NCBI GenBank assembly: GCA_028293405.1
Contig: JAQGOW010000206.1
Location: forward strand, 1-10,021
Direction of reading: 5' to 3'
Source of the DNA: Verrucomicrobiales bacterium
GTDB taxonomy: Bacteria; Verrucomicrobiota; Verrucomicrobiia; Limisphaerales; Palsa-1400
Length of the DNA: 10,021 bases
Program-made: the position numbers and the translations under genes
Notes under the pieces: generated by a model
The model's database searches: none
What the model saw: the letters and a program-made list of their open reading frames with translations, nothing else
Told to the model about the DNA's origin: nothing
Shown: positions 168 to 10,021 of the stretch, in pieces
How the letters are laid out: each line of letters begins with the position of its first letter
Numbering within the stretch: the stretch's first letter is position 1

Positions 168-749
168 ATGGCGCTCGTTCTCGTCAAAGAAGATGGCACT
201 GGGTTAGCGAACGCGAACTCTTACGCGAGCGCTGCCGATGGTGACGCGTACCATGACGGGCACTTGTACGCTACCGTCTGGACCGGAGCGACGACGGCGA
301 ACAAAGAAAAAGCGCTCGTCTTTGCGACGCGTGTCATTGATTCGCAATATCGGTTTCGCGGATTCCGCGCGACGGCGGTGCAAGCACTGCAGTGGCCACG
401 AAGTGAATGCGCCGATCTGGACACTGCGCCGGATTCTACCGGCACGGCCTACTTTCCAAGCGATCAGATTCCAACTGCTTTGCTCAACGCGACGTGTGAA
501 ATGGCTCGCGCGCTGTTGGCGACAGATCGCACTGGCGCGCCGCCCGGTGAAGGGATTGATACGACGCAAACGTCTGCGTCGAGTTCGACCGGTGGCACTC
601 CGTCGAGCAGCGTCAGCAATAGTTCGATGACGCGATACAGCAAGGTGGATGTGCGCCCGACGATTTCCCAGGCGGCACAAGCGTTTCTTGCCAAGCTCGG
701 CGATTTGCGGGGCAAAGGCTGTGGGTCCGTGCGGCTGCTTAGAGTTTAA
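168..749 (+). CDS. phage 'DnaT-like' head-module protein
   Basis: This 193-residue protein matches by eye the phage family annotated as 'putative DnaT-like ssDNA binding protein' (Pfam DnaT_2). Diagnostic parts are the N-terminal EDGTGLANANSY motif (residues 8-19), the QALQWPRS box (72-79), the IPTALLNATCEMA helix (101-113) and a Gly-rich, basic C-terminus (181-193). Despite the name, members lie in head genes of tailed phages, typically after the major capsid gene, and are best regarded as head-completion or connector-like proteins; DNA binding is unproven. A Ser/Thr-rich linker (about 132-154) separates the two parts and looks like a local expansion. The ATG starts 2 bases after the upstream stop, with no clear Shine-Dalgarno sequence, which suggests translational coupling. 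The next gene follows after 6 bp. The family call is confident, the function is not. Confidence 0.8.
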   Translation: MALVLVKEDGTGLANANSYASAADGDAYHDGHLYATVWTGATTANKEKALVFATRVIDSQYRFRGFRATAVQALQWPRSECADLDTAPDSTGTAYFPSDQIPTALLNATCEMARALLATDRTGAPPGEGIDTTQTSASSSTGGTPSSSVSNSSMTRYSKVDVRPTISQAAQAFLAKLGDLRGKGCGSVRLLRV

Positions 750-755
750 GGAGCT

Positions 756-1076
756 ATGACAAACATGAACACAATCGAATTTTTGAAAGCAGTCGATCAC
801 GCCGCTGCAATGAACGACCGTTGGCTGTTCCTGGCCGCATTCTGCCTGCTGCTACTTTTGTGCGGCCTTGTCATCTATTGGCTGGTGCGGCAGTTGCAAT
901 TGGTCATCGGCGATCACAAGGAGCTTCGTCGTGAACATCATTCGGCCCTCGAAAAGATCATCAACACACAAAACGAAACCACACTGAAACTTGCGGTGTG
1001 TCTGGATCGGAATTCTGCCGCATTGCAGGAGTGTGCTTTTGAGCTGCGCCGATTTCAGGAGAACCGAAATTTATGA
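756..1076 (+). CDS. one-TM, coiled-coil phage membrane protein (inner spanin-like)
   Basis: The product has 106 residues. One strongly hydrophobic segment (about 23-46, Leu-rich) is followed by a charged helical stretch (about 50-104) with coiled-coil character. This short N-terminal anchor plus coiled coil is the shape of phage inner-membrane spanins (Rz type). Its stop codon overlaps the start of the next gene, a lipoprotein, in an ATGA overlap, again as in spanin pairs. I see no sequence signature that proves it. A holin accessory or structural membrane protein are alternatives. The start is uncertain: AAGGAG at 748-753 is only 2 bases from ATG 756 and 11 bases from the in-frame ATG 765, so the real protein may lack the first three residues. 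Confidence 0.6.
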   Translation: MTNMNTIEFLKAVDHAAAMNDRWLFLAAFCLLLLLCGLVIYWLVRQLQLVIGDHKELRREHHSALEKIINTQNETTLKLAVCLDRNSAALQECAFELRRFQENRNL

Positions 1077-1801: not shown

Positions 1802-2119
1802 ATGAACTCTGTAAAACAAAGATTTGTTCTTCCGTCGGGCTTGCCCGCGTGTGTCGGAATTGAAGAGGCCGCGCAGATCCTCGGCTGGCCAGATTATTTT
1901 CTACCGGTGCTGATGCGAACGGGTCTGCTCAAGCCGCTTGGTAAACCGTCACAATCTTCAAGAAAGTGGTTTTCCACTGTTGAACTCGAGCGGTTGGGGA
2001 CCGATCCAGTCTGGCTCGATAAGGCTGTGCGCACCGTTGAAAAGCATGTGCATGACATGAACGAAAAACGGCGAGGCAAGCTCGCGCCTGCCTCGCCGCC
2101 TGATCCTTCGTTAAACTGA
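1802..2119 (+). CDS. excisionase-like helix-turn-helix DNA-binding protein
   Basis: The 105-residue product carries a MerR/excisionase-type winged helix. Residues 19-45 (GIEEAAQILGWP... then LMRTGLLKPLGKP) form the HTH, and 50-66 (RKWFSTVELERL) look like wing and return helix. A basic, Pro-rich tail follows. Proteins of this kind commonly sit beside integrases and may be recombination directionality factors (Xis) or small regulators; no residue separates the two. GAGG at 1793-1796, 5 bases before ATG, gives a good ribosome binding site. The gene follows the lipoprotein gene by 12 bp and overlaps the convergent integrase by 9 bp at the stop codons. Its last codons also encode the integrase terminator, so the tail sequence (residues 90-100) is partly dictated by that hairpin. 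Placing it at the end of a structural/lysis operon is unusual for an Xis. Confidence 0.75.
   Translation: MNSVKQRFVLPSGLPACVGIEEAAQILGWPDYFLPVLMRTGLLKPLGKPSQSSRKWFSTVELERLGTDPVWLDKAVRTVEKHVHDMNEKRRGKLAPASPPDPSLN
2069..2098 (-). terminator. intrinsic terminator of the integrase gene
   Basis: Perfect 10-bp inverted repeat (CGGCGAGGCA at 2069-2078, TGCCTCGCCG at 2089-2098) with a 10-nt loop. Read on the minus strand it is followed at once by five T (2068-2064), the classic form of a Rho-independent terminator, 12 bp after the integrase stop. On the plus strand no T-tract follows, so it should act in one direction only. It lies wholly within the coding 3' end of the opposing DNA-binding gene. 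Confidence 0.8.
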
Positions 2120-3127
2120 CGCGGGCGCGTTTGTCTGGCGCTTTTCGTATTCTTCCAGGGATGGCAATTTCATGAGCGCCTTGCGCGAATAGGCGTGATG
2201 CACGGCCTTGCTGGTGTGACCAAGTGCCTCCTGCGCGAAACGCTCGGGATAGCCTGCGCATTTCGCGCGCTCTGCCCAGGCGTAACGATAACTGTGGAGT
2301 GTTACCCCGACGATTTTAAGTAATTTGCAGCGCGATCGGAATTCAGTCGCGCGGTCATTGGTGCGAACGCTCGCGAGATACGGAAAGAGAAGTCCTTCGC
2401 TCGGCAGGTCTTTCAAAACCGTCAGCGCCTCTTCGCCAAGATGGACGATCACTGCCACACTCGTTTTCTTGCGCGCATAGCTCAGAGTTTTGTCCTGCCA
2501 GTTCACGTCTTCACCGCGAAGATTGGCGATGTCGCCCTGGCTCGCGCCCAAGCACCAGCATAGGCGATAGAACGCGCGGCGCTCAGGATTGCGCTCGGCG
2601 GCGATAATCTGTTGGTGCTCTTCCAAAGTGATTGCGCGTTTCGGTTTGAAGTGGATCGCCGGCCATTGCCTTTTAGGAATGATCGTTGCCGGCAACCAAC
2701 TCATGTCCAACGCAAAGTTGTGAATCTTGCGCAGATGGGCGTTGGTCGAGACTTTGCCTTTCTGCAGAACTTCGAGGAAGTGCTCGGCTTTCGTTTCGAT
2801 GAGCGGCAACGAGAGGATTGATTTGAATGCCTGGTCTTTCGCGGCCGATTTCCAGCGCAGTTGCGTGGTGCCGGTTTTCGTCGAGATGATTGAGTCCAAC
2901 ACAGTCTGCCACGTGCGTTGCGCAACCATTGGATCACTGTGCCGCAGATAAACGCGAGCGAGGCTCATGTTCATGGCGGGTTGTTTGTTTGCTTCGTTCA
3001 TCGCCAGTAGCAGGCGATTGGCTTCGGCTTCGTCTCTGGTTTTGAGACTTTCGAAGCGCTTGGTTTGATTATCGAACGCGTAATAGACGGTCTTGCGTCG
3101 CAGGAATAAACGATACCTCTGTTTCAT
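2111..3127 (-). CDS. int: tyrosine recombinase (integrase) lacking the first catalytic Arg
   Basis: A 338-residue phage-type integrase. Residues 1-50 resemble an arm-binding/AP2-like N-terminus, about 53-150 the core-binding domain, and 165-320 the catalytic domain. Visible catalytic residues are Lys220 or Lys221 (ARKKT), His278 and Arg281 (HSYR), His304 (LGH) and the nucleophile Tyr313 (HHAYS). In box I, where most members read T-G-x-R-x-x-E, this protein reads LGASQGDIANL: Ser196 stands at the Arg position. As I recall, verrucomicrobial relatives share this change, so it is probably a family trait rather than damage. It should catalyse integration at the neighbouring tRNA-Cys. ATG 3127 has no Shine-Dalgarno at normal spacing; GGAG (3149-3152) is 21 bases upstream, beyond a perfect hairpin that abuts the start codon. 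The gene is full length and ends 12 bp before its own terminator. Confidence 0.92.
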   Translation of the reverse strand: MKQRYRLFLRRKTVYYAFDNQTKRFESLKTRDEAEANRLLLAMNEANKQPAMNMSLARVYLRHSDPMVAQRTWQTVLDSIISTKTGTTQLRWKSAAKDQAFKSILSLPLIETKAEHFLEVLQKGKVSTNAHLRKIHNFALDMSWLPATIIPKRQWPAIHFKPKRAITLEEHQQIIAAERNPERRAFYRLCWCLGASQGDIANLRGEDVNWQDKTLSYARKKTSVAVIVHLGEEALTVLKDLPSEGLLFPYLASVRTNDRATEFRSRCKLLKIVGVTLHSYRYAWAERAKCAGYPERFAQEALGHTSKAVHHAYSRKALMKLPSLEEYEKRQTNAPASV

Positions 3128-3297: not shown

Positions 3298-3325
3298 TGG
3301 AGGCGGAGGTCGGAATTGAACCGAC
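3298..3325 (-). other. inferred attachment site in the tRNA-Cys 3' end
   Basis: The T-arm, acceptor 3' strand, discriminator and encoded CCA of tRNA-Cys (3325 to 3298 on the minus strand) face the integrase. Tyrosine integrases usually recombine in this part of a tRNA and carry a copy that keeps the gene whole, and the tRNA here is intact. The exact core cannot be fixed because the second copy lies outside the window. Confidence 0.5.
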
Positions 3326-3372
3326 GCATACAGCTTTTGCAGAGCCGTGCCTTACCACTTGGCTACTCCGCC
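3298..3372 (-). tRNA. tRNA-Cys (anticodon GCA)
   Basis: A complete 75-nt tRNA including an encoded CCA (3300-3298). Acceptor stem GGCGGAG (3372-3366) pairs with CTCCGCC (3308-3302). The D arm has a 3-bp stem GCC/GGC around AAGTGGTAA. The anticodon arm is CGGCT, loop CTGCAAA, AGCTG, with one G-U pair and anticodon GCA at 3340-3338. The T arm is GTCGG, loop TTCAATT, CCGAC. The discriminator base is U (3301), a known identity element of tRNA-Cys, which agrees with the anticodon. The gene lies 55 bp after mtnA on the same strand and could be read from the same transcript. It is the presumed integration site of the neighbouring element and appears fully functional after integration. Confidence 0.96.
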
Positions 3373-3427: not shown

Positions 3428-4540
3428 TTAGCCGCCGAACCTCGCGCGGTTTTTCCACAGGTCTCGCGGTTTGAAAATTCCGGCGGGTGTGATGATGCCG
3501 GTGATGAGTTCAGCAGGCGTCACGTCAAACCCAGGATTGCGCGCGCCGCTGCTCGGATTGGCGATGCGCACATAGGTTGATTTCGGATTTCGAATTGCGG
3601 ACTTCGGGATTATTCCCCACGCGCCGAGCACTTCACTTTCGCTCCGGTCTTCAATCGGGATGTCGCGGCCTTTGCGCAGGTTCCAATCGATGGTCGATAA
3701 CGGAATGGCAACGTAAAACGGGATTTTGTGCCGATGCGCGAGAACGGCTTTGGTGTAGGTGCCGATTTTGTTCGCCACTTCACCGGTGCGGCCGAGCGTT
3801 CGATCACTGCCGACAATCACCATGTCAATTTCGCCGCGCTGCATCAAATGTCCGGCAGCGTTATCCGCGATGACTTGGTGCGAGATACCTTGCTGTGCAA
3901 GTTCCCACGCAGTCAACGTTGCGCCCTGGCAACGCGGACGCGTCTCGTCGCAGAAGACGTGAAACTTTTTCCCGGCTTGATGCGCTGCATACATCGGTGC
4001 GGTAGCACTGCCGATGTCCACGAACGCCAGCCAACCGGCGTTGCAATGTGTCAGCACTCGCATGCCGTTGCGAATGAGCTTGCCGCCGTGCTCGCCGATG
4101 GCACGGCAATGGTCGACATCTTCGTTCGCGAATTCTTCCGCAGCCGCCAACGCGAGCGCTTGCTGTTCTTCCACCGTTGCGCCGCTGCTCATGGAGCGGC
4201 GAACATCGTTCATCGCATTAACGGGATCGACCGCGGTGGGACGGGCGTCTTTCAAGGCTTGATAGACGGCTTCGACGTGCTTGGAAAATTTTGCCAAATC
4301 GCTGCCACGAAATGTGCGCGCGCCTTGTGCTAAACCGTAAGCTGCCGTCGCACCGATTGCGCCGGCACCGCGCACGATCATGTCTTTGATCGCTAACGCG
4401 GTTTCACGAAAATCGCGGGTGCCGATGATTTTGAATTGGTGCGGCAACAACCGTTGCTCGATCAGCATCACGGAATTTTTACCGGCATCAAATGTGACGG
4501 TGCGATAATGTTGGGAGCGGCCTTTAACTCTGACGTTCAT
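3428..4540 (-). CDS. mtnA: S-methyl-5-thioribose-1-phosphate isomerase
   Basis: MtnA converts 5-methylthioribose-1-phosphate to 5-methylthioribulose-1-phosphate in the cytoplasmic methionine salvage pathway. The 370-residue product shows the family motifs: VRGAGAIGATAAYG (56-69), THCNAGWLA (164-172) with the catalytic Cys166, DETRPRCQGATLTAWEL (198-214), and VGSDRTLGRTGEVANKIGTY (243-262) with the catalytic Asp246. It ends with the conserved NPGFDVTPAELITGIIT block (335-351). It is somewhat longer than the common 340-350 residues. Part of the excess is a 7-residue-period stretch (about 309-322, PKSAIRN then PKS) encoded by tandem heptamers and lying in a variable region before the conserved C-terminal block, so activity is probably retained. 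No other salvage gene is visible. It follows htrA by 45 bp on the same strand. The ATG has only a weak GGG ribosome binding site. Confidence 0.95.
   Translation of the reverse strand: MNVRVKGRSQHYRTVTFDAGKNSVMLIEQRLLPHQFKIIGTRDFRETALAIKDMIVRGAGAIGATAAYGLAQGARTFRGSDLAKFSKHVEAVYQALKDARPTAVDPVNAMNDVRRSMSSGATVEEQQALALAAAEEFANEDVDHCRAIGEHGGKLIRNGMRVLTHCNAGWLAFVDIGSATAPMYAAHQAGKKFHVFCDETRPRCQGATLTAWELAQQGISHQVIADNAAGHLMQRGEIDMVIVGSDRTLGRTGEVANKIGTYTKAVLAHRHKIPFYVAIPLSTIDWNLRKGRDIPIEDRSESEVLGAWGIIPKSAIRNPKSTYVRIANPSSGARNPGFDVTPAELITGIITPAGIFKPRDLWKNRARFGG
3579..3611. repeat. tandem heptamers (GATTTCG type) inside mtnA
   Basis: Four 7-bp units in a row: GATTTCG, GATTTCG, AATTGCG, GACTTCG, followed by a partial GGATT. 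It lies in frame within mtnA and encodes the PKS-AIRN-PKS stretch (residues 312-321). Because 3 x 7 nt equals 7 codons, the peptide also repeats every 7 residues. It interrupts MtnA between two conserved blocks and looks like an inserted or expanded dispersed repeat that the protein tolerates. Confidence 0.75.
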
Positions 4541-4585: not shown

Positions 4586-6082
4586 TCACGGCTGTCGTGC
4601 TGGAACCAGAATATACACTGTCTGTTTTTCGCGCTTCACTCGAAGCAACGTGTTGCTCTGATTGTTGGCGTTGTCCATGATCTTGCGTAGATCCGCCGGC
4701 GACGTGACTGGTTGATGATTCGCCTCCAGGATCAAGTCGCCTTCGTGCAAGCCAGCCATTGCCGCCGCACCGCCTTCTTGGACGTCAGTCACGACCACTC
4801 CTTTATCGCCTTGCAACCCGAGTTGCTGCGCTAACGCGGGCGTGAGCTGTTGCACGGACACACCGAGTTTGCCCGACGGTTTACTATCTTTATTCGCACC
4901 GGCAGGATCGGATTCGACCGAAGCGACTTCGGCTTCCGGCGCGAGTTTGCCGACAGTGGCCGTCAGCGTTTGCTCTTTACGATCGCGCAAGACATCCATT
5001 TTGAGCCGGGTGTCTGGTGGCGTTGCGGCGATCAGGTTTTTCAAGTGTGCCGTGTCCTGCACCGATTTTCCTTCAACGCGCAAAATGATGTCACCGGGTT
5101 TGAGCCCCGCTTGATCAGCCGGGCCACCTTTGCTGACCTCGCTGACCAAAGCGCCATTCAGTGTGTTCGCTTTGAACTGTTGCGCGAGGTCGCTGGTTAG
5201 TTCCTGGATTCCAACTCCAAGAAATCCGCGAACGATCTTGCCGCCGCTGGTCAAAGTCGGCAGAACGGCTTTGACCATGTTGATGGGTATGGCCAAACCG
5301 ACGCCGGCAAATTGCCCGATGCTCGTGGCAATCACGCTGTTGATGCCAATGACCTGACCGCGCATGTTCACCAAAGGTCCACCCGAGTTGCCTGGATTAA
5401 TCGCCGTATCGGTCTGCAGAAAATCTTCGTAAGTGTTGATGCCGATTCCAGCGCGGCCTTTCGCGCTGAGAACACCGGTCGTGACCGTTTGAATGAACCC
5501 AAACGGCGAGCCAATCGCCATGACAATATTTCCAACCTGCAACGCATCGGAATCGCCGAGCTCTGCCATCGGCAAATCTGAAGGCGCGTTGCCCTTGATG
5601 CGAATGACTGCAATATCGCTGGCTGGATCGCTCCCGACAATCTCTGCTTCAAAGCGACGTTTGTCGGCCAACTGCACTTTAATTTCATCGACGTCCCCGA
5701 CGACGTGATAGTTCGTCAGAATGCGACCCTTCTTGTCGATGATGATGCCTGAACCCATGCCTTGCTGCGGAACGGAACTCGCGTGACCGCGACTGCCGCG
5801 GCTCCGACTTTGCGGACCCTGTTCGCCAAAAAATTTGCGCAACAAATCGTCAGCGTTGCTTTCGTTGCGTTTGACCATCTTTTCGGAGTAGACGCTTACG
5901 ACGGCTGGTTGCACGCGTGCTGCGACTTCCGCGAATGCTTTGCCCAACTGCTCCGCCGGCGCGGTCACTTGCGGATCGATCGCACCGCCGGATTGATTGC
6001 CCGGCGCGCCGATTTGTTGCTCAGCGTCTGCCGCGAAAATTCCAAACGCGAGCGCGAGCCCGCAAGCTGTAATACGTGTCAT
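4586..6082 (-). CDS. htrA: DegP/DegQ-type periplasmic serine protease, two PDZ domains
   Basis: An exported quality-control protease that degrades damaged envelope proteins. From ATG 6082 it has 498 residues. A Sec signal peptide (1-20, hydrophobic core ACGLALAFGIF, likely cut after ADA) is followed by a linker and a trypsin-like domain (about 45-275). The catalytic triad is complete: His126 (TNYHVVGD), Asp156 (SDPASDIAVI) and Ser233 (NPGNSGGPL). PDZ1 spans about 283-378 (starting RGFLGVGIQ) and PDZ2 about 403-494 (GKLGVSVQQL). Two PDZ domains indicate the DegP/DegQ type rather than DegS. A Gln/Ser/Arg-rich insert (about 86-107) matches the position of the LA loop. An in-frame upstream GTG at 6148 would put 22 residues ahead of the signal peptide and is unlikely; AAGGAG lies 4 bases before ATG 6082. 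That site is completely enclosed in a hairpin, suggesting translational control. It lies 122 bp after glnD and 45 bp before mtnA. Confidence 0.95.
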   Translation of the reverse strand: MTRITACGLALAFGIFAADAEQQIGAPGNQSGGAIDPQVTAPAEQLGKAFAEVAARVQPAVVSVYSEKMVKRNESNADDLLRKFFGEQGPQSRSRGSRGHASSVPQQGMGSGIIIDKKGRILTNYHVVGDVDEIKVQLADKRRFEAEIVGSDPASDIAVIRIKGNAPSDLPMAELGDSDALQVGNIVMAIGSPFGFIQTVTTGVLSAKGRAGIGINTYEDFLQTDTAINPGNSGGPLVNMRGQVIGINSVIATSIGQFAGVGLAIPINMVKAVLPTLTSGGKIVRGFLGVGIQELTSDLAQQFKANTLNGALVSEVSKGGPADQAGLKPGDIILRVEGKSVQDTAHLKNLIAATPPDTRLKMDVLRDRKEQTLTATVGKLAPEAEVASVESDPAGANKDSKPSGKLGVSVQQLTPALAQQLGLQGDKGVVVTDVQEGGAAAMAGLHEGDLILEANHQPVTSPADLRKIMDNANNQSNTLLRVKREKQTVYILVPARQP

Positions 6083-6083
6083 A

Positions 6084-6110
6084 GTTCTCCTTTGCAAAAT
6101 GCAAGGGAAC
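6084..6110 (-). promoter_or_regulatory. hairpin burying the htrA ribosome binding site (candidate RNA thermometer)
   Basis: On the minus strand, GTTCCCTTGCA (6110-6100) can pair with TGCAAAGGAGAAC (6096-6084) across a UUU loop. All 11 bases of the 5' arm are paired; the 3' arm has two single bulged A residues (6091 and 6088). The Shine-Dalgarno AAGGAG (6092-6087) lies entirely in the 3' arm, and the stem ends one base before the AUG. An imperfect, bulged helix that hides a strong ribosome binding site is the layout of bacterial RNA thermometers, and HtrA-type proteases are classical heat-induced proteins. Base pairing is read directly; temperature response is inference. Confidence 0.6.
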
Positions 6111-6204
6111 GTACGACCCGAACTCCGCAATCGAAATTGGCACAACACCCCAAACCGCAGTCAGGGCAGGGTGGTTCGCGCTCTAGTGACGGTGCCGACC
6201 TCGA

Positions 6205-9030
6205 CTATTTACCGATCGCGCTGCGCAGGCGGTGCTCGATGTGACGGAGTCGGTCAGCATGCGTGATCTTGGTCTTGTCCCATTCGGTCACGTAAAACGT
6301 GTCGGAAGCCGCGCCTTTTTCGGTCAAGATTTTTGCGATGGAAACGTCGAGATTTAAATCGTTCAACGCGCGGGAAATATCATAGAGCAAACCGATGCGA
6401 TCTTCGGCTTCGATGTCGATGATAGTGCGGGTTTCGGAAAGTTCGTTGTCAAAACTTACGGACGTCGGGATGCGTTCGCCCTCCAACGATTTGTACGTTT
6501 GTGGCGCGGGTTTGGTTTTGGCGATGATACCGGGCAAGTCGACGTGCGTGCCCATGAGGACTTTGTTCATCAACGACTCGAATTTGTCGCGACCGTCTTT
6601 ATTCGGGAGCAAGCCGGTGCGGGCGTCGTTGACGCTTAAACAGTCCAAAATGATGCCGTCGCTGCGCGTTAAAATTTCGGCGTGGAAAATATTCAGTCCG
6701 GCGGCGGTGAGACATCCGGTGATTTTGCTGAAGAGGCCTTCGCGGTCCCAGGTGCAAACCGTGACGGTGCTGTAGCCGCGGTCGGGTTCGTTGTGCCAAG
6801 CGATAACCGGAGTGAGCGCGTTGGATTCGTCGTCGGCAAGTTGCACGTGCAAAAAACGGTGCACGTGCGTGATGTCGCGCAGGATTTCTTTGGCGTCGTT
6901 GATTTGAAAATAACGCGTGGGAAGATTGTTGAAGTGCGCTTCAATTTCTTCGGTGTCGAATGTGTCGGGCGCCATTCGTTCGACTTCTTCGGAGAGCAGG
7001 TCGCGTTGGCGCGCTTCGGCGATTAAGAATTCCGGTGCGCCGCTCAGCGCATCGCTGGTCTTGCGATAGAGTTGCCACATCGCGGCGTCCTTAAAACCGT
7101 TCCAGAGCTGATCGCTCGTGCCCATCGAATCGGCAAACGTGTGCAACGTCAGCATCACGAGGTGTTCGGCCGTTTGGATCTGGCGCGCAAAATTGCGGAT
7201 GACGGTGGCATCGTCGAGGTCGCGACGCTGGGAGATTTGCACCATCGTCAGATGGTTCTCGATTAAGAGGCGCAAGGTGTGCGTTTTTGCGCCGTCAAGG
7301 CCAAGTCGCGCGGCGGCTTTTTCGGCGAGCTTGGCGCTGGCGTCTTCGTGTTTGCCGGTGTCGAGGGCCTTACCGGAATCGTGGAGCAAGAGCGCGAGAT
7401 ACAAGACATGCGGATGCTCAACTTGCGGGAACAGCTCTGCATAGGAGTTGAACGGCGGCGTCTTTGCGTTCCACACTTGGTCGAGTTTTTCCAGGCAGAC
7501 CAACGTGTGTTCGTCGGCGGTGTATTGATGATAAAACTCATGTTGGACAAGGCACGTCAGTTTGCCGAATTCGGGAATAAATTTTCCGAGCAAGCCCACT
7601 TCATGCATCGCGCGTAGAACGGGCGCGACGTTGCCGCGTTGGTCGAGAATTTCCAAAAACGTTTCGCGCACATGCGGATCGCGTTGGAATTCATTGTTCA
7701 CGAGCGAAAGCTGATTGCGCAACAGTTGCGCGAGATCGGCGTTGAGCTTGAGGCCGCGTTGTTGGGCGTGCAGGAAGACGCGCATGATGCGGCGCGGGTT
7801 GTCGCGAAAGACGTTGCGCGAGAGAAAATGAATTTCGCCATCGACGCATTTGAATCCATCCACGACCTGACGGCGCATGCGTTCGGCTTGCGAACGGAAG
7901 ATCGCGCCGAAGGACGGGATGAAACCGGTCTTGGGTAGGAGCGCGAGGCGTTGTTCGACGGTGCGCGTGATTAAATCGATGTTGCGCGCGTGCGTGTAGT
8001 AATCGCGCATGAACTCTTCGACGCGCTTGCTTGGCGAACGCTCTTTGTAGCCGAGTTCCCAGGCGACCGGGGCCTGCGCGGCTTTGTTCAAGGCATCGGC
8101 GGCGCGATCGGCGTGATAGTGAAGCTCAGTGCGGGCGCGCAAAAGAAAATCGTAAGCGGCTTCGAGTTGCTTGCGCTCAGATTCGCTGATCATTTCCTTT
8201 TGCTGGAGTTCCTCGAGCGAGCGCGTGCGATATTTGAAATACGTCATCCAGATCAGGTTCTGGTAATCGCGTAAACCGCCGCAGCCGTTCTTGATGTTCG
8301 GCTCCTGCATTAACGGTGAGTTGCCGAACTTTGCGCGCCGCGCTGCCTGATCCTGCACGCGAGCGTTGATGTAATCGGATTCCTGACCCAGAACGCACTT
8401 GGCTAACAGTATGCGATGAAAGCGATCGAACAATTTTTCGTCGCCCATGATGCGACGCGTTTCAATCAAACTTGTTTTCGACTGGATATCTTTGCTCGCA
8501 ACCTTCACGCAATCTTCGACCGTGCGCACGGAATGGCCGACTTTGAATCCGAGATCCCAAAGCGTGTAGAGCAAGCCATCGACGAGCGCGGAGAGCGCCG
8601 GGTTGGCTTTGGGATTCAGGCCAATCTCGGACTCGTGCAGGAACATGATGTCGATGTCGCTGTGCGGATTGAGTTCCGCGCGGCCATAACCGCCCGTGGC
8701 GACTAACGTGAACGTCGGCACCGGAGTGCGCGCGCGTTGTTTGGCTTGTTCGGCAGTGGAGGCTGAAAAGTCCAACGGCTTCTGCGCGAATTCGGGCGAA
8801 TTGGCCAGCACACCGTCAACGATGTGGCGCAGGAGCAAATCAAGAATGGCGGAGCGCGCCTGACAAACTTCGAGCCCGCTTGCACCGGCGCGATGGAGCA
8901 TTTTGACGCGGTGGGTTTCGACTTTGAGAAACGTTTTGTAACGCGCCAGTTCCTGAGAAGGCATGCGATTGGCCGGCAGAACAAGGCGTTCTGCGGCGCT
9001 GGCTTCAATCTTCTCAAGCAATGTCGGCAT
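6205..9030 (-). CDS. glnD: bifunctional PII uridylyltransferase / uridylyl-removing enzyme
   Basis: GlnD attaches UMP to PII proteins when glutamine is low and removes it when glutamine is high, setting the nitrogen response. From ATG 9030 the product has 941 residues, somewhat longer than the E. coli enzyme. In order: a nucleotidyltransferase domain with GGYGRAELNPHSDIDIMFLH (113-132), metal-binding Asp125 and Asp127; the GlnD linker region (including GCGGLRDYQNLIWM, 249-262); an HD phosphohydrolase domain with HDSGKALDTGKHED (550-563), His550-Asp551; and two C-terminal ACT domains (about 753-828 and 869-938) that sense glutamine. All four modules are intact, so both activities are expected. 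A TTG 21 bases further upstream (9051) is also in frame, but ATG 9030 has TTAGGT about 5 bases ahead and TTG has no ribosome binding site. No PII or ammonium transporter gene is visible. Confidence 0.95.
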   Translation of the reverse strand: MPTLLEKIEASAAERLVLPANRMPSQELARYKTFLKVETHRVKMLHRAGASGLEVCQARSAILDLLLRHIVDGVLANSPEFAQKPLDFSASTAEQAKQRARTPVPTFTLVATGGYGRAELNPHSDIDIMFLHESEIGLNPKANPALSALVDGLLYTLWDLGFKVGHSVRTVEDCVKVASKDIQSKTSLIETRRIMGDEKLFDRFHRILLAKCVLGQESDYINARVQDQAARRAKFGNSPLMQEPNIKNGCGGLRDYQNLIWMTYFKYRTRSLEELQQKEMISESERKQLEAAYDFLLRARTELHYHADRAADALNKAAQAPVAWELGYKERSPSKRVEEFMRDYYTHARNIDLITRTVEQRLALLPKTGFIPSFGAIFRSQAERMRRQVVDGFKCVDGEIHFLSRNVFRDNPRRIMRVFLHAQQRGLKLNADLAQLLRNQLSLVNNEFQRDPHVRETFLEILDQRGNVAPVLRAMHEVGLLGKFIPEFGKLTCLVQHEFYHQYTADEHTLVCLEKLDQVWNAKTPPFNSYAELFPQVEHPHVLYLALLLHDSGKALDTGKHEDASAKLAEKAAARLGLDGAKTHTLRLLIENHLTMVQISQRRDLDDATVIRNFARQIQTAEHLVMLTLHTFADSMGTSDQLWNGFKDAAMWQLYRKTSDALSGAPEFLIAEARQRDLLSEEVERMAPDTFDTEEIEAHFNNLPTRYFQINDAKEILRDITHVHRFLHVQLADDESNALTPVIAWHNEPDRGYSTVTVCTWDREGLFSKITGCLTAAGLNIFHAEILTRSDGIILDCLSVNDARTGLLPNKDGRDKFESLMNKVLMGTHVDLPGIIAKTKPAPQTYKSLEGERIPTSVSFDNELSETRTIIDIEAEDRIGLLYDISRALNDLNLDVSIAKILTEKGAASDTFYVTEWDKTKITHADRLRHIEHRLRSAIGK

Positions 9031-9324
9031 GTCGGACCTAAGATAGGGCAAGACGGAGGGAGTATGAAAGTGAAACTACGTTTGGACCACCAAGACACCA
9101 AGGTTCAGGATGCGTGCCGGGCCGCGCACTAGTTTGCGGCAATGTTCGCGAAGGGGTTCGGGTTTTGGCGAGTCTGGATGCTTTACCGCTGACCGGCCCC
9201 CCCCACCTCACCCCTCTGGGACCCGTCCCACCGTCCCAAGGCCCGTAAACATTGGGTGTTTTTGACTTTTGACCCGTCCCGTGGGACGGGTCAGTGGCGT
9301 CCCAGACTCACTGTGCCTCCCGAA
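9031..9324. other. gene-free stretch between glnD and the secreted-protein gene
   Basis: I find no credible gene here. It should hold the glnD promoter, but no clear -35/-10 pair could be assigned. At 9086-9102 the sequence ACCACCAAGACACCAAG contains an imperfect 9/8-bp direct repeat and looks like a piece of a dispersed intergenic repeat. At 9197-9204 there is a run of eight C. The right part contains a cluster of GTCCC/GGGAC inverted repeats, listed separately. Confidence 0.6.
9215..9306. repeat. nested GTCCC/GGGAC inverted-repeat cluster
   Basis: The core is an 11-bp palindrome, TGACCCGTCCC (9270-9280) with GGGACGGGTCA (9283-9293), around a 2-base centre. A direct copy of GACCCGTCCC lies at 9220-9229 and can itself fold with GGGAC at 9218-9222. 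An outer pair, TCTGGGAC (9215-9222) and GTCCCAGA (9299-9306), encloses the group. It begins 19 bp after the stop of the secreted-protein gene on the minus strand, so a terminator role is possible, but no T-tract follows in either direction. It could also be a dispersed palindromic repeat or an operator. Confidence 0.6.
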
Positions 9325-10021
9325 TCATGGCACTCTTAACCTGAAGTATCGTCCGACGTTGCCAATCGTGACCGTAGCGTTGGTGCCAGCGGTGGAAATT
9401 TGCGTCCATTGGGCGGAAGGTCCGAGCGCAGTTGTGCTTTCCAGAATCGCTGTGGCGTAGCCACTGGACCACGACAGGTTCACTTGGTTGGCATTTCGGG
9501 CGATAGTCAGGACCAACGGAGCTCGGTAATCGATCGTGAGCGAAACCGTGGCGGGTTGTGAATCGGTGTGGCCATCATTAACGATGAACGTGAAGCTGTC
9601 GGAACCGACGAAGTTAGTGTTCGGCTGATAAGTGACGTTCGGCGCAGTGCCGATCAAGGTGCCGTTCGCGGGCGACTGAGTGACAGTGTAGGTCAATGGG
9701 TCGCCATCTACATCCGTTGCCGTCAACGTGATATTAGCGAGGGAGTTTTCAAACAGTTCCACGGATTGATTGGTCGCGGTCGGAGCGCTGTTGCCGGCAC
9801 CGACGATAATGTCGAAATTCTGCACACCGATTTCGGCATCCCTTGCCGCCAGTTCCACTGAGTTCGTGCCAATGTCCGCCGACGATGGTGTTCCCCAGAT
9901 TACTCCGCCAAAACGAACGAGTTTGCGAACGTTGTAGGCAACCGCGTCGAAGACATAGGCCGTTGAGCCATCCGGGGTCACAGTGAGGTTGAAGGCGTGG
10001 TCACTGAACCGTGCAAGCGGG
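9325..10021 (-). CDS. C-terminal part of a secreted protein with a cadherin-like/Ig-like domain (partial)
   Basis: The reading frame is open to the right edge and ends at TGA 9327-9325, leaving 231 visible residues. The first part (FNLTVTPDGSTAYVFDA) resembles a blade of a YVTN/NHL-type beta-propeller. Residues about 79-163 form a cadherin-like/Ig-like domain of the Big_9 or VCBS-related kind, with typical ATDVDGDPLTYTV and GSDSFTFIVNDG motifs. The last 65 residues (VLTIARNANQVNLSWSSG... RYFRLRVP) are a beta-rich domain of a kind frequent at the ends of verrucomicrobial secreted proteins. Such proteins are exported and often very large; binding partner and function are unknown. No membrane anchor, LPXTG or PEP-CTERM tail is visible. 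A GTG at 9981 is not the true start, because the domain continues upstream. The gene reads towards glnD with the repeat cluster between. Confidence 0.85.
   Translation of the reverse strand, partial: PLARFSDHAFNLTVTPDGSTAYVFDAVAYNVRKLVRFGGVIWGTPSSADIGTNSVELAARDAEIGVQNFDIIVGAGNSAPTATNQSVELFENSLANITLTATDVDGDPLTYTVTQSPANGTLIGTAPNVTYQPNTNFVGSDSFTFIVNDGHTDSQPATVSLTIDYRAPLVLTIARNANQVNLSWSSGYATAILESTTALGPSAQWTQISTAGTNATVTIGNVGRYFRLRVP

Follow-up and report, generated by a model that had tools for sequence, protein, structure and literature searches.

A stable predicted hairpin over the ribosome binding site and start codon of htrA in a Verrucomicrobiales bacterium

The usual layout of an RNA thermometer is pairing over both the Shine-Dalgarno (SD) sequence and the AUG, and a single short stem-loop can suffice, as in Synechocystis hsp17 (PMC4166951, section 3). 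In Salmonella, HtrA is controlled by fourU elements (PMC4166951, section 5, citing Klinkert et al. 2012). PMC4166951 also describes RNA thermometers as having little sequence conservation. A literature search for RNA thermometers in Verrucomicrobia, made with a single spelling and phrase, found none. An earlier note on a 10,021-nucleotide stretch of DNA from a Verrucomicrobiales bacterium (the whole stretch is the window here) proposed that an htrA leader folds into a heat-melting switch. The analogy is a fair one, in view of the Salmonella htrA fourU and the sufficiency of one short stem-loop (both in PMC4166951). Nothing that was computed indicates a heat response of the htrA hairpin.

The window encodes on its minus strand a Do-family serine endopeptidase of the HtrA/DegQ type (4586..6082, 498 aa), with trypsin-like and PDZ domains and a match to TIGR02037 (473.2 bits, cutoff 416.2). 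Upstream and in the same direction is glnD, encoding [protein-PII] uridylyltransferase (6205..9051, minus; TIGR01693, 646.8 bits, cutoff 519.4), which leaves a glnD-htrA gap of 122 nt, and mtnA (3428-4540) comes after htrA. The htrA ATG is at 6082-6080. This start assignment is well supported by the protein alignment, since M1 is invariant in 12 of 12 aligned proteins and the ATG position is thus common to the close homologues. An in-frame GTG further upstream, at 6148, was rejected as a start; by eye it has no usable SD spacing, and all 11 aligned close homologues start at the ATG position instead. Neither sigma-70-type promoters nor terminator-like sites were found in 5990-6400 (0 sites of each). 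A leader common to glnD and htrA also fails as a candidate, with no htrA match at 12 glnD loci of other genomes (0.3-1.5 kb downstream examined) and no glnD match in 131 htrA loci including their flanks. Elsewhere in the same genome, at 478-740 of locus L014 (contig C146), another glnD C-terminal segment shares about 74% identity with the window GlnD. It consists of two overlapping pieces in different frames, which suggests that a frameshift has occurred or that the assembly includes a contaminating contig. A surface-type protein fragment with a bacterial Ig/cadherin-like domain (PF17963) is encoded at 9325-9981 (minus).

The sequence GUUCCCUUGCAUUUUGCAAAGGAGAAC (window 6110 to 6084, minus strand) is calculated to fold as (((((((((((...))).)))).)))). 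This inner stem (6084..6110, minus) has 11 bp and an energy of -9.2 kcal/mol at 37 C, with a UUU loop at 6099-6097 and two bulged A's, A6088 and A6093, the latter degenerate with 6092 and 6091. One base (6083) separates it from the ATG. Folding thus reproduces the 27-nt helix of the earlier note, with its 11 bp, two bulged A's, UUU loop and position one base before the AUG. The SD AAGGAG (6087..6092, minus), identified from sequence and structure, had been placed entirely in the 3' arm, and all six bases do lie there, but only five of them are paired, with CCUU and C as partners, A6088 being bulged. Similarly, the limits 6110-6084 are exact for the inner stem, but pairing runs past 6110. The 5' outer arm GUCGUA (6112..6117, minus) pairs with the 3' outer arm UAUGAC (6078..6083, minus), which holds the start codon, so that the start codon is also paired. 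The whole stem-loop over SD and start codon (6078..6117, minus) has 17 bp in 40 nt and an energy of -16.2 kcal/mol. Occlusion of the ribosome site ahead of a stress protease gene therefore holds, from the folding and the TIGR02037 match. By calculation the locus has the general layout of an RNA thermometer, which is pairing over the ribosome site and/or the start codon, usually in a 5' UTR. A switch through an alternative leader fold was looked for in the 142-nt leader (-122..+20); no competitor helix takes the arm and there is no cheap release of the SD. Forcing the SD open in this leader costs about 9.5 kcal/mol at 37 C and dissolves the inner stem around it.

Pairing, stability and position of the hairpin are all calculated, and the stem is an outlier on the order of one start in a hundred, which is no proof of function. 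The 40-nt stem has a z of -5.73, with 0 of 200 shuffles equally stable, and the 27-nt core by itself a z of -3.02, with 1 of 200. The sense RNA of the 40-nt stem folds better than the antisense (-16.2 and z -5.73 vs -12.6 and z -3.18), as expected if RNA is the functional form. Of 4000 random 40-nt segments drawn from the genome, 155 contained letters other than ACGT and were set aside. Of the remaining 3845, 5 match the stem in both energy and z, a figure flattered by a length that was fitted to the helix ends, and 49 match it in energy alone. The raw energy of the region -40..+20 is ordinary, with values of -18.8 or lower at 22 of 262 called starts, and over the 27 positions of the core a value of -9.2 or lower is reached at 6 of 262. 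These starts, like those of the opening-cost comparison below, come from a simple calling rule of our own and not from an annotation, and a good number could be miscalled.

The cost of opening the htrA SD is 8.8 kcal/mol for AGGAG and 10.0 kcal/mol for AAGGAG. With SD and ATG fixed, 39 of 3000 flank shuffles reach the AGGAG cost and 23 of 3000 the SD-to-AUG cost, and 0 of 500 shuffles reach the AAGGAG cost. The p value of the htrA leader thus varies with the SD definition (39/3000; 0.025 with 200 shuffles; 0/500). Other starts of the genome were sampled from 115 contigs (678,629 b of 3,849,066 b; 563 ORFs), which gave 213 starts with an SD of at least 4. By AGGAG cost, htrA ranks second among these 213, first among 99 ATG starts, and first among the 33 ATG starts having an SD of at least 5. 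The joint SD-to-AUG opening is less special, 15 of 213 starts and 7 of 99 ATG starts being at or above htrA, itself included in both counts. With two such starts in the sampled 17.6%, the assembly as a whole should hold about eleven that are equally occluded, so the htrA SD lies in the tail of the distribution and is not unique. A called start at 765 (plus; window 725-784) also has its SD in a hairpin, with an opening cost of 7.4 kcal/mol, third of the 99 ATG starts. It belongs to a small ORF, 756-1076, which has no PHROG match and whose true start may be ATG 756 rather than 765. This ORF is part of a prophage-like region with a head-tail adaptor Ad1 (phrog_477; 168-749, plus), a tyrosine integrase (PF00589, phrog_1; 2111-3127, minus) and, adjoining the integrase, a tRNA-Cys (GCA) at 3298-3372 (minus). 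The region is a prophage remnant or end, and the tRNA-Cys is possibly the integration site.

The explanation that we favour, tentatively and at somewhat less than even confidence, is a cis-acting leader hairpin that lowers htrA translation and has so far been seen in this genome alone. The model supposes that the hairpin forms in the cell, where pairing of both the SD and the start codon would reduce translation initiation of htrA. A stem as stable as this would nearly silence the gene unless something opened it. Candidate openers are thermal breathing near the top of the host temperature range, an RNA chaperone or trans RNA, and capture by a ribosome before the stem closes. A transcript whose 5' end fell within the 5' outer arm would keep just the 11-bp stem, the weaker of the two. 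Against a translation-lowering hairpin are the lack of any sign of it in reachable relatives, the comparably occluded starts expected elsewhere in the assembly, a joint SD-to-AUG cost that is less special, and the failure to find a sigma-70-type promoter in 5990-6400.

The relatives with DNA are distant. The best HtrA matches in five other genomes of the family are only 40-43% identical. Among the matches listed, no homologue exceeds 46% identity in the order (319 other genomes) or 52% in the phylum (387 genomes sampled), and the highest value in genome_contigs, where 80 loci of 193 were kept, is also 52%. With the close homologue P0002 as query, 384 genomes of the class gave five more loci, 46.6-53.3% identical to the window HtrA. 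The nearest genome_contigs loci, at 52%, include records labelled Sideroxyarcus and proteobacterium. In the protein database, 11 aligned homologues have 71-85% identity, and P0006, named Limisphaerales, has 84% over 93% of the length. Thr is found at position 2 in 3 of the 12 aligned HtrA proteins, that of the window included, and Lys or Arg in the other nine, in which the terminal outer pair at base +5 therefore cannot be identical. Since identity is 40-43% in the family and 52% in the records with those labels, and much closer proteins occur elsewhere, a patchy distribution or transfer of the HtrA gene is possible. No viral contigs carrying the closest homologue were found, and a distant DNA search of plasmids gave no match.

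It is also possible that the stem is a chance inverted repeat without a regulatory role, or a neutral dampener, noticed because the gene encodes a stress protease. This is a serious rival, which we nevertheless consider unlikely, and the homologous leaders speak for it. Among 83 scored there is no excess of SD occlusion. Only 5 reach p<=0.05, close to chance expectation, and the p values are spread as by chance, with medians of 0.52 (24 leaders, family and order) and 0.57 (59 leaders from genome_contigs, many of which are Acinetobacter and not independent). This set is what remained after 38 of 122 loci, the window included, were dropped for want of an SD of at least 4. Unusual occlusion is also absent from the nine nearest htrA leaders for which there is DNA (proteins 47-53% identical), where 125-391 of 500 shuffles are as occluded as the leader itself, and a tenth near leader, L048, has p 0.284. 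Judged by opening cost, two leaders equal or surpass that of the window htrA in occlusion, namely L126 (9.2 kcal/mol, p 0.005) and L089 (12.9 kcal/mol, p 0.09). The start of L126 looks misassigned, because the DNA preceding it reads as a signal peptide. Chance is also favoured by the ordinary raw energy of the start region, by the roughly one in 100 leader shuffles that reach the AGGAG opening cost, and by the several starts in the window from which one could be picked. Against it stand the z of -5.7, the 17 pairs that include both SD and AUG, the few random segments that are equally extreme, and an SD-opening cost at the top of the 99 sampled ATG starts.

A true RNA thermometer, in which the ribosome site is closed when cool and heat opens the stem to raise HtrA, is doubtful. 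It has in its favour a pairing that covers both SD and AUG, which is the usual layout (PMC4166951, section 3), and the fourU control of HtrA in Salmonella (PMC4166951, section 5). Openness of the SD to the AUG also increases about 3,400-fold from 20 to 42 C, though in the same model the E. coli heat-shock leaders ibpA and ibpB rise about 1,450-fold and 360-fold, so a large relative rise is common to such stems. The relative rise is at least equal to that of these controls, and the difference lies in the absolute level. Rfam finds ROSE_2 only in the ibpA leader, and ibpB was used as a related heat-shock leader; E. coli degP was left unscored as a control, having no SD of at least 4 by the start rule.

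In absolute terms the stability calculated for the htrA hairpin seems too great for melting at ordinary temperatures. The earlier note had suggested folding at several temperatures; in ViennaRNA from 10 to 60 C the paired SD bases remain paired, and in leaders that include the outer arm the AUG stays paired as well. Over this range the bulged A stays free, and at the degenerate A bulge two A's are free about one third of the time. The bulges had been thought to weaken the helix, but the extended stem is predicted to be closed up to 60 C, and the two-state melting temperatures of 74.8 C (core) and 81.0 C (40 nt), vs 68.0 C and 61.7 C for the SD hairpins of ibpA and ibpB, are 7-19 C higher by the same method. 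The heat-melting switch is thus not supported. At 42 C, SD-to-AUG opening costs 12.4 kcal/mol for htrA, vs 5.5 (-91 leader) or 5.0 (-60 leader) for ibpA and 5.9 (-99 leader) or 6.9 (-60 leader) for ibpB. For a leader starting at 6110, which removes the outer arm, the 42 C cost falls to 8.0 kcal/mol and is still above both controls. The folding model leaves the ibpA and ibpB controls mostly closed at 42 C as well, so the calculation disfavours a simple thermometer and cannot settle opening at 37-42 C. The lack of any Rfam match and of the fourU feature, and the ordinary occlusion of the other htrA leaders (83 scored, the nine nearest shuffled), also count against a thermometer. Relatives that keep the SD and lose the 5'-arm pairing had been named as grounds for abandoning it, and such relatives were found, all of them distant. 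Thermometers are poorly conserved in sequence, so this lack of conservation is weak evidence against one at htrA.

In a helper-dependent version, heat or envelope stress would open the over-stable stem through a helper and so control HtrA translation in a lineage near Limisphaerales (Verrucomicrobiota), which we regard as very improbable. The inverted repeat TTGCATTTTGCAA could instead be a DNA operator, a repressor site overlapping the htrA start, with a 13-bp centre in which two perfect 5-bp inverted arms flank TTT. This is highly improbable. TTGCATTTTGCAA has a single exact match in its own assembly (estimated 67% complete), which gives no hint of a regulon; the 18-mer TTGCATTTTGCAAAGGAG, with one mismatch allowed, is confined to its own genome, the other 319 of the order lacking it; and the symmetry of the outer arms depends on bulges and a G-U pair, features that suit RNA rather than DNA. 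An intrinsic terminator or a hairpin stabilising the mRNA 5' end is scarcely credible, as the stable stem in the glnD-htrA gap has no terminator-like site around it in 5990-6400 and overlaps the ribosome site, which defeats a pure stabiliser role. Operator and terminator readings taken together carry very little probability.

If the translation-lowering hairpin is functional, it would add what is probably a Verrucomicrobiota lineage, going by the name of homologue P0006, to those in which a structured leader controls HtrA, the envelope-stress protease. A bulged stem over the SD is insufficient to infer a thermometer, as can be seen here, where the extended stem exceeds two E. coli controls in stability. 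The earlier note had recorded that the ROSE and fourU motifs are not matched exactly, and this was borne out. Like ROSE (Rfam ROSE_2; E. coli ibpA), the window stem holds the SD in a hairpin with irregular positions. Unlike it, the stem is more stable than that of ibpA, and comparison of 6020-6260 with Rfam gave nothing at E<=10, while the same tool scored ROSE_2 at 100.4 bits in the E. coli ibpA leader. The Synechocystis hsp17 thermometer is alike in being one short stem-loop and belongs to an unrelated gene; the likeness is to its description in PMC4166951. The Salmonella htrA fourU, as described in PMC4166951, shares both the gene family and a leader structure that pairs the ribosome site. 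Its four U's pair with the AGGA of the SD, whereas the SD here pairs with CCUU and C, and the UUUU at 6099-6096 makes up the loop and the base that closes it. A heat response is reported for the Salmonella element, and the window stem is known by calculation. The suggestion of a new type is not upheld, with no family match, no such stem in the nearest relatives with DNA, and an htrA thermometer already published (PMC4166951, section 5); a thermal switch at this locus would thus join a known kind.
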